DNA from: Promethearchaeia archaeon | Lineage (GTDB): Archaea > Asgardarchaeota > Lokiarchaeia > Sigyniarchaeales > SOKP01 | Reading direction: 5' to 3' | DNA: 34,279 nt | NCBI GenBank assembly: GCA_029856235.1 | Contig: JAHQWP010000091.1 | Coordinates: 1-34,279 of the forward strand | In this document: piece after piece, positions 22,491 to 32,724 of the stretch | How positions within the stretch are numbered: position 1 is the first letter of the stretch | Layout of the letters: the number at the start of each line of letters is the position of its first letter | Program-made: the position numbers and the translations under genes | Notes under the pieces: model-generated | Database searches by the model: none | Told to the model about the DNA's origin: nothing | The model's input: only the letters and a program-made list of their open reading frames with translations

Positions 22491-23303
22491 ATGAGTGAAG
22501 ATATAAATATTGTTTCTATAATAGGCGTTGGCTATTTAGGTAAACAAATAGCTGAGAAAACGGCAATGAAAGAATATACAATACATTTATACGATACAAA
22601 TGTAGAGGATTTAGAAAAATTCTCCATTGAATTAAAGAAAAGAAAAAAAACTTCAGGAGAAATAACATCACATGAATCCATAAAAGACGCTGTAAAAGAC
22701 GCAGACTTAATTATTGAAGCAGTTCCAGAAATATTAGAATTAAAAAGAGAAATTTTTAAGATAATTGACGAAGCAGCTCAACCTAATGCCATTCTTGCCA
22801 CGAATAGTTCGTCATTCCCTGTCTCTAAATTAGAGGATGTCGTAGAGCGAAAAAATAAATTGTTGAATATCCATTTTTATGACCTTTTTGCTATGCCAAT
22901 GGCAGACATCATGAGAGGGACTAAAACTAGTGATGAGACATTTGAAAAAGGTAAAAAATGGGTTGAAAGTATTGAAATAACACCTTTAATAGTTAAAAAA
23001 GAGTGCTATGGATTTGTGTTTAATAGAGTATGGCGCGCTATTAAAAAAGAATGTTTGAAAATCTGGGCAGGAGGATATGCTGATTTAGAAGAGGTGGATA
23101 AAGCATGGAGAATATTCACGGGTATGGGAATAGGGCCTTTCCAATTTATGGACCAAATCGGGTTGGATGTGATTTATCACATTGAAATGTCCTACTATAA
23201 AAACAGTGGCTTAGAAGAAGACAAGCCTCCTCAAGCTTTAAAAGATTTAGTTGATAATGGTAATCTCGGGCAAAAATCGGGAAAAGGTTTTTACACCTAT
23301 TAA
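22491..23303 (+). CDS. 3-hydroxyacyl-CoA dehydrogenase-like protein
   Basis: VSIIGVGYLGKQIAEKTA, LATNSSSFPVS, NIHFYDLFAMPMADIMRGTKTSDE, GQKSGKGFYTY. Confidence 0.87.
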   Translation: MSEDINIVSIIGVGYLGKQIAEKTAMKEYTIHLYDTNVEDLEKFSIELKKRKKTSGEITSHESIKDAVKDADLIIEAVPEILELKREIFKIIDEAAQPNAILATNSSSFPVSKLEDVVERKNKLLNIHFYDLFAMPMADIMRGTKTSDETFEKGKKWVESIEITPLIVKKECYGFVFNRVWRAIKKECLKIWAGGYADLEEVDKAWRIFTGMGIGPFQFMDQIGLDVIYHIEMSYYKNSGLEEDKPPQALKDLVDNGNLGQKSGKGFYTY

Positions 23304-23336
23304 TACCTTTTTATCTTTTTTAAAAAAAATAAAATA

Positions 23337-23400
23337 CCCCAACCTTAGCAAGATTGTCTCCATGTATCAACAATTTTTATACATGAATCATCCAATGGGG
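23337..23400 (-). promoter_or_regulatory. Candidate SECIS element in 3'UTR of the Sec-peroxiredoxin-like gene
   Basis: Minus strand CCCCAUUGGAUGAUUCAUGUAUAAAAAUUGUUGAUACAUGGAGACAAUCUUGCUAAGGUUGGGG; CCCCA/UGGGG base stem, UGAU/AGAC quartet, UCAUGUAU/AUACAUGG helix, AAAAAUUGUUG loop; begins 2 nt after the stop codon. Confidence 0.65.
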
Positions 23401-23401
23401 T

Positions 23402-23911
23402 TTATAACTTCTCATCAATTATAGTTGTCATCATTTTTATCGAAGGTCGGTCTGTCTTATCTTTGCCAATATAGGTCCATATGATCTTTCTGTTCTTGTT
23501 TATCAGAAATTTGCTTGGTACTGCTTGTTTAATGTTTAAAGTTCCTCCTCCACCGGGAGCAAACCAATAAACATCGTAATCTTTTGCTATTTTTGCTCCA
23601 CGATCAGAGATGATATCAACGTTGAAATTGTTTTCTTCCTTAAATTTCTTTAAAAGTCTTTCACTATCGCTTGCGATTGATATTACCTTGATATTTCTGC
23701 TCTCAAATTCTTTAATATCTTCTGTTAGTAGATACAAATGCTTTTTACAGTGACTTCACCAATTTCCCCGGAAAAAGTCTATTAGAACTCCGTCGTACTC
23801 TTCAAGTAAGTTTTCCAAGTTCATTTCTTTTCCATAAACATCTTTAGTGTCAAAGATAGGTGCTACCGAATTCTCTGGTAATCCCCTAGGCCTTGGCGGT
23901 TCTTCGTTCAT
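23402..23911 (-). CDS. Peroxiredoxin-like (AhpC/TSA, Trx fold) selenoprotein; TGA at 23756-23758 (codon 52) read as Sec
   Basis: In-frame through TGA: MNEEPPRPRGLPENSVAPIFDTKDVYGKEMNLENLLEEYDGVLIDFFRGNWUSHCKKHLYLLTEDIKEFESRNIKVISIASDSERLL...; U occupies the redox Cys position of the RGxWCxxC motif. Confidence 0.82.
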
Positions 23912-32168: not shown

Positions 32169-32203
32169 TTAAATTTGGTTTGGTGAGATGTGGCTAACCT
32201 TCT

Positions 32204-32239
32204 AAAAGTAAATATCATTTATATTTTCAATTTACTTTT
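32204..32239 (-). other. 3'UTR stem-loop, weaker SECIS candidate
   Basis: Minus strand AAAAGUAAAU-UGAAAAUAUAAAUGAU-AUUUACUUUU, perfect 10-bp A/U-rich stem, 17 nt after the stop of the second Sec gene. Confidence 0.4.
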
Positions 32240-32256
32240 TCCAAACATATTTTTTA

Positions 32257-32724
32257 TTATATTTTCTCTAATATTTCAAATATTTCTTCATTTTTAGGAA
32301 TATCTTGCATGCTATCTCCATAATAAGCGAATTGAATAATACCTTGCTTATCAACGATTAACATTCCAGGCATCCTTCCTCCTTTGGATAACTTGATCTC
32401 TTGATTCAACATTTTAGGAACCTTTTTCGAAGGATCATAGTATATTGGATATTTTCGAGCGTATTTTTCTTCCATTTTTTTTGCGTTTTTCTCAGAATCT
32501 GCTAAGATTGGATAAAGTACGGTTTCCATCTGCTCAAACTTCTCGAAATCTTTTCTTAAATGTGCCGCGTGCCATCTACAGTAAGGTCATTTAATGTTTC
32601 GAAATAATATAACAACAACTTTTTTTTTACCTTCAAGAGCTCTTATATTTAGTACCCCGCCTCTCGAATCTGGGAGGGAAAATTCTTGAATTTTCGTACC
32701 AACGATTTGAAATTTATCCTTCAT
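32257..32724 (-). CDS. Peroxiredoxin-like (AhpC/TSA) selenoprotein; TGA at 32587-32589 (codon 46) read as Sec
   Basis: In-frame through TGA: MKDKFQIVGTKIQEFSLPDSRGGVLNIRALEGKKKVVVILFRNIKUPYCRWHAAHLRKDFEKFEQMETVLYPILADSEKNAKKMEEKYARKYPIYYDPSKKVPKML...; UPYC replaces CPYC. Confidence 0.82.

Follow-up and report, generated by a model that had tools for sequence, protein, structure and literature searches.

The prxL gene and its UGA codon

The window, i.e. the whole stretch of 34,279 nt that was analysed, carries on its minus strand a gene for a Prx-like selenoprotein, here called prxL, followed directly by a structured 3'UTR element.

23402-23911, minus strand: prxL, Prx-like (AhpC/TSA) selenoprotein gene, 169 aa when TGA is translated as U; ATG at 23911-23909, TAA stop at 23404-23402
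23756-23758, minus strand: in-frame UGA, codon 52, predicted Sec in FRGNWUSHC (UxxC motif); the same codon is TGA in nearly all homologs

The product matches PF00578 (AhpC/TSA) with an E value of 7e-23. Homologs of prxL were found in 44 of the 86 genomes of the class, nearly all with TGA at the Sec codon, and the FRGNWUSHC gene with its in-frame UGA is kept in about 40 Lokiarchaeal genomes. Some paralogs carry a second UGA (UxxU active site), and a review already lists Prx-like selenoproteins with UxxC or UxxU (PMC13188914). Such two-UGA paralogs, with one SECIS apiece, were seen at twelve loci (L026, L027, L033, L035, L037, L038, L041, L044, L045, L050, L052 and L054).

The element downstream of prxL

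The hairpin of the original prediction occupies precisely positions 23400-23337 of the minus strand. It begins 1 nt past the stop codon, not 2 nt as had been claimed, and this is the 3'UTR placement expected of an archaeal SECIS. The parts are listed below from 5' to 3'; the T-rich run was placed from the sequence alone.

23397-23401, minus strand: P1 (helix I), 5' strand ACCCC
23388-23393, minus strand: bulged strand of the putative kink turn, containing AUGA; G23393 (-1b), bulge G-A-U 23392-23390, G23389 (1b), A23388 (2b); G in 125/126, A in 125/126 and TGA in 124/126 elements
23387, minus strand: U of the N.N pair, facing A23359
23379-23386, minus strand: P2 (helix II), 5' strand UCAUGUAU; compensatory changes at all 8 pairs
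23368-23378, minus strand: apical loop AAAAAUUGUUG with A-rich 5' end; AAA in 56/56
23360-23367, minus strand: P2 (helix II), 3' strand AUACAUGG
23356-23358, minus strand: non-bulged strand G-A-C; G23358 (2n), A23357 (1n), C23356 (-1n, pairs with G23393); GA or AA in 126/126, C in 123/126 elements
23341-23355, minus strand: P3 (third helix), AAUCUU-GCU-AAGGUU, hairpin on the non-bulged strand, from covariation and recurrence across families
23336-23340, minus strand: P1, 3' strand GGGGU, abutting P3
23321-23335, minus strand: T-rich run 3' of the element, a plausible transcription terminator

The 8-bp helix above the core, the A-rich opening of the apical loop and the closing CCCC/GGGG helix are all there as originally described. 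The UGAU/AGAC stretch is there too, but for C23356 a pair with G23393, which leaves G-A-U as a 3-nt bulge, is a better assignment than the U.C pair of the quartet. Folded as a single sequence, the element has an energy of -18.5 kcal/mol and a z-score of -2.1 relative to dinucleotide shuffles, which taken alone is suggestive only.

Comparative evidence places the hairpin far beyond chance. A total of 56 distinct 3'UTR elements from prxL homolog loci were taken and aligned. In helix II 95.1% of the cells are paired, a percentage slightly favoured by an extraction which required an AUGA- or GGA-type core and some pairing; the compensatory changes, found at 8 of the 8 pairs, are not accounted for by this bias. 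The covariation score, which spans helix II plus part of the third helix, is 0.584, while shuffled versions score 0.298 ± 0.015 and slid ones no more than 0.213. Several positions never vary in the set: the G that precedes the bulge, A and GA within AUGA, the loop's AAA, and the AC that follows the core G. The original prediction had named orthologous 3'UTRs as the place to look for covariation, and there helix II covaries at every pair while the core and the apical A's do not change. RNAalifold recovered helix II and no other helix in the PrxL set, partly because MAFFT shifts the third helix by one column in some rows, and for this reason anchored and per-family counts were used for that helix. 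An Rfam search at gathering thresholds gave no match anywhere in the window. All in all we regard the element as almost certainly the SECIS of prxL.

A third helix next to the core

The hairpin between the core and the 3' strand of P1, called P3 here, was missed in the first account of the element, and is in our judgement very probably a real helix. In the PrxL set the anchored hairpin has a mean of 5.16 bp compared to 3.88 ± 0.15 in shuffles, and its stem reads AACC/GGUU, UGCC/GGGUG, AUCC/GGAU or GCUCU/AGAGC among the relatives. The folding z-scores of the P3 segment are weak in PrxL alone (mean -0.89); what supports P3 is its covariation and its recurrence across families. The stems are AACUC/GAGUU or AACCC/GGGUU in VhuD elements, and CCGUU/AACGG, CCACC/GGUGG, ACACC/GGUGU or CCAAC/GUUGG in SelD elements. 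Outside the class, other Asgard families (f11, f18 and f20) have UGGCCC/GGGCCA and AAUCCUC/GGAGGGUU, both in VhuD elements, and CCACC/GGUGG. On sequence-only alignments, P3 of the SelD set is 85.8% paired with a covariation of 0.430 compared to 0.262 ± 0.034, and in the VhuD set the covariation is 0.293 compared to 0.209 ± 0.025; none of 300 shuffles reaches the score in either set. As the shuffles do not remove relatedness, a stronger argument is that hairpins of unrelated sequence recur at this place in different families and classes: P3 is present in PrxL, VhuD, HdrA, SelD and a new membrane family, i.e. five gene families in several Asgard classes. Helix I also covaries in the SelD and VhuD sets.

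A plain eukaryote-type SECIS with two helices (helix I, internal loop, quartet, helix II), in which P3 would be a chance pairing within a conserved internal loop, would agree with the published Asgard models and a review, which in the parts of their text available give one apical loop, an internal loop and a lower stem. It would also suit PrxL taken alone, where two P3 pairs vary on one side only and the sequence is fairly conserved. A chance pairing is nevertheless improbable when P3 has unrelated sequences in the five gene families, lies always directly 3' of the core, and covaries in SelD and VhuD beyond all shuffles. Even less probable is a bistable element which switches between P3 and a competing GGAU/AUCU pairing. 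GGAU/AUCU is indeed the minimum free energy structure of the window element folded as a single sequence (-17.5 compared to -14.6 kcal/mol with P3), but it depends on one C-to-U change (U23353) in the source genome; the closest relatives have a C there (AACC) and fold as a three-way junction. The GAUU/AAUC pairing with a bulge, which had been offered originally as an alternative, was rejected because it is not conserved among the relatives, and the suggestion of an archaeal/eukaryotic intermediate found no support, the window copy being of the ordinary Lokiarchaeal form.

Occurrence at other selenoprotein genes

A covariance model built from the Prx set was run over the 3.7-Mb genome to which the window belongs, and gave eight sites at E values up to 0.04. 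One of them is the window element. Four others mark the 3' ends of selenoprotein genes: two for VhuD, each with a pair of UGA codons, one of the HdrA type (CGIU), and one for a 63-aa single-TM protein with GGGUPSTC. Across the genome the element thus marks selenoprotein genes. Two sites have no convincing gene: L067 1501-1584 (C40:37057-37140) is a strong SECIS of 60 bits behind a small zinc-ribbon-like frame ending UGA UAA, and L070 765-845 (C4) is a 41-bit match near a contig end with no convincing UGA gene upstream. At L073 1501-1586 (C29:8173-8258) a SECIS-like element with good P1 and P3 lies at the 3' end of a 309-aa frame without UGA, and is a fossil or a product of chance.

The single-TM protein belongs to a candidate new selenoprotein family (L068/L118, C14:6027-6215 in this genome, and L119-L137) of 60-70 aa with one TM helix. 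About 20 Lokiarchaeal genomes have the conserved GGGU with in-frame UGA and a SECIS directly after the stop. Among the 20 loci 17 have GGGU with the in-frame UGA, two are variants (GDGTU and GGSSU) and one was not resolved; identity ranges down to about 32%, and all 20 have a standard SECIS core with a P3-like hairpin behind it. The family has no Pfam match and is not among the seven Asgard selenoprotein families listed in 2024, as far as the available part of that text goes (PMC11227280).

As to the Sec machinery, the genome has SelD with one UGA of its own, SecS and a PSTK-family gene. A TIGR00475 search of this MAG returned EF-1A, aIF2-gamma and other relatives and no EFSec; EFSec is present in 17 of 25 congeners, and its absence here is most simply an assembly gap. 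A tRNA-Sec was not found in the MAG, the best RF01852 match being rejected as a tRNA-Leu. Lokiarchaeal tRNA-Sec has been reported to carry an intron (PMC9499178), which would make it score poorly under a standard model.

The window has a second Prx-like selenoprotein gene (32257-32724, minus strand) with UGA at 32589-32587 in FRNIKUPYC. Relatives of this gene were found in 44 genomes, and nearly all of them carry a single UGA. In the 3'UTR, at 32178-32246 (minus strand), there is a conserved three-way element with P1 GUUUGG/CCAAAC, a long A/U helix, a loop containing AAUGA and a conserved GUUAGCCA hairpin, but no AUGA_GA quartet. This is possibly a different class of SECIS, and the AUGA_GA core is thus not universal.

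Two readings of the locus leave no role for recoding. The UGA could be a true stop and the frame beyond it a pseudogene remnant, and standard gene calling does yield a 111-aa frame starting at TTG; but the protein identity of 82-91% within the genus runs through and past the UGA, the region beyond it belongs to the AhpC/TSA domain and the UGA is kept in the homologs, so that the chance of this being right is negligible. Hardly more credible is a hairpin that merely terminates transcription or stabilises 3' ends between convergent genes. Such a role would suit the T-rich run that follows the element, as well as the neighbouring convergent gene, which ends at 23303, but a terminator has no need to conserve AUGA, GA-C and the A's of the loop. 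The element moreover tracks UGA genes, and in relatives it starts while the frame is still open, so that the stop codon falls in the junction. Neither a lack of covariation nor a mere terminator, the two outcomes originally named as speaking against a SECIS, is thus what was found.

A kink-turn signature, a probable k-junction and a proposed model for the element

Taken together with P3, the core has the sequence pattern of a canonical kink turn, with a C-stem pair, an R-A-U bulge and then G.A and A.G. In 123 of 126 elements a G lies four positions before the G of the GA in AUGA (G-R-A-U-G-A), and the 3' GA has a C after it; in SelD elements the -1b:-1n pair is C-G or U.G. A k-junction is a kink turn with an additional helix (PMC10573300). 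The kink turn of such a junction (C-stem pair, 3-nt bulge, G.A then A.G) is seen here in the sequence and in the covariation of -1b:-1n, and P3 provides the extra helix on the non-bulged strand. Going by these sequence features we think it rather likely that the element has true k-junction geometry.

The model that we propose is as follows. Helix II with its A-rich loop would stack on the tandem sheared G.A/A.G pairs, the GAU bulge would kink the backbone with C23356 paired to G23393, and P3 and helix I would complete the three-way junction. We know of no SECIS-binding protein of archaea, and since archaea have no SBP2 the 3'UTR element would recruit EFSec with Sec-tRNA-Sec probably via another binding protein, after which the UGA about 350 nt upstream would be read as Sec. 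No SBP2 is reported in Asgard genomes in the available part of one study (PMC11227280). A point against the model is that a Lokiarchaeal SECIS was not functional in Methanococcus maripaludis (PMC11881835), a result that also fits a different SECIS reader.

L7Ae of A. fulgidus did not fold two k-junctions that were tested, and the authors suggested that the extra helix blocks access (PMC10573300). On this ground we propose shielding as the likeliest role of P3. By making a k-junction out of what would otherwise be a simple kink turn, P3 might prevent L7Ae, an abundant protein, from binding the SECIS, which would then be free for a reader of its own; the proposal is tentative, and we hold it to be somewhat less likely than not. 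A wider scenario would be that the ancestral Asgard SECIS was a three-way k-junction, set apart by P3 from the kink turns bound by L7Ae and read by an Asgard-specific factor, and that eukaryotic SECIS lost P3 when SBP2, which is of the L7Ae type, took over. We offer this as speculation that is rather unlikely to hold.

A conserved third helix bears on the question of how a SECIS can be read in archaea, which lack SBP2. P3 beside the kink turn changes the structural model and sharpens the search model, which has already found a selenoprotein family absent from the published lists in the portions available. It also permits a direct test of L7Ae binding with and without P3, and of which protein requires P3.

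Comparison with known SECIS types

The eSECIS-like element of Lokiarchaeota was reportedly first described by Mariotti et al. in 2016. The prxL element is of a known kind, namely a type I Asgard eSECIS-like element (Huang 2024; PMC11227280). Where that study calls for a core 5'-GA_[G/A]A-3', usually AUGA_GA, the element has AUGA_GA; for a stem of 7-15 bp with at most 2 mismatches and a loop of 8-20 nt without ministem, it has 8 bp plus U-A and an 11-nt loop. It lies 1 nt after the stop at -18.5 kcal/mol; the study allows a place between 30 nt before and 600 nt after the end of a UGA selenoprotein gene, and an energy below -5 kcal/mol. At least 3 Sec-machinery genes are asked for in the host, and here these are SelD (with its UGA), SecS and a member of the PSTK family. 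The element is predicted to direct Sec insertion at the UGA.

In the part of that text available, type I elements share with the one described here the AUGA_GA core, an upper stem of 8-9 bp, an 11-nt apical loop opening with A's, the place in the 3'UTR beside the stop and the occurrence in prxL; the model runs from an upper stem through the core and an internal loop to a lower stem, without mention of a third helix on the 3' side of the internal loop, and the k-junction paper is cited only for the geometry of GA_AA (PMC11227280). A review, also available in part, ascribes a single apical loop to the Lokiarchaeal SECIS, with Mariotti 2016 as its source (PMC9499178). P3 is thus likely to be new with respect to the available text of the published Asgard SECIS models.

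Known examples of the k-junction (TPP riboswitches and DUF-3268 RNA; PMC4005666, PMC10573300) are riboswitches or of unknown function; for the prxL element the k-junction fold is a prediction from its sequence. The methanogen SECIS (eaSECIS) has a GAA_A bulge flanked by consecutive S-S pairs, the G-C clamps, and these are absent from the prxL element on inspection of the sequence. With the eukaryotic SECIS (form 1) it shares the AUGA_GA kink-turn core, the unpaired apical A's and the location in the 3'UTR. It differs from that form by a shorter helix II, by a third helix where the eukaryotic form has just an internal loop between its two helices, and by its occurrence in archaea, which do without SBP2. 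The Asgard SECIS is the best stand-in for the ancestor of the eukaryotic one.
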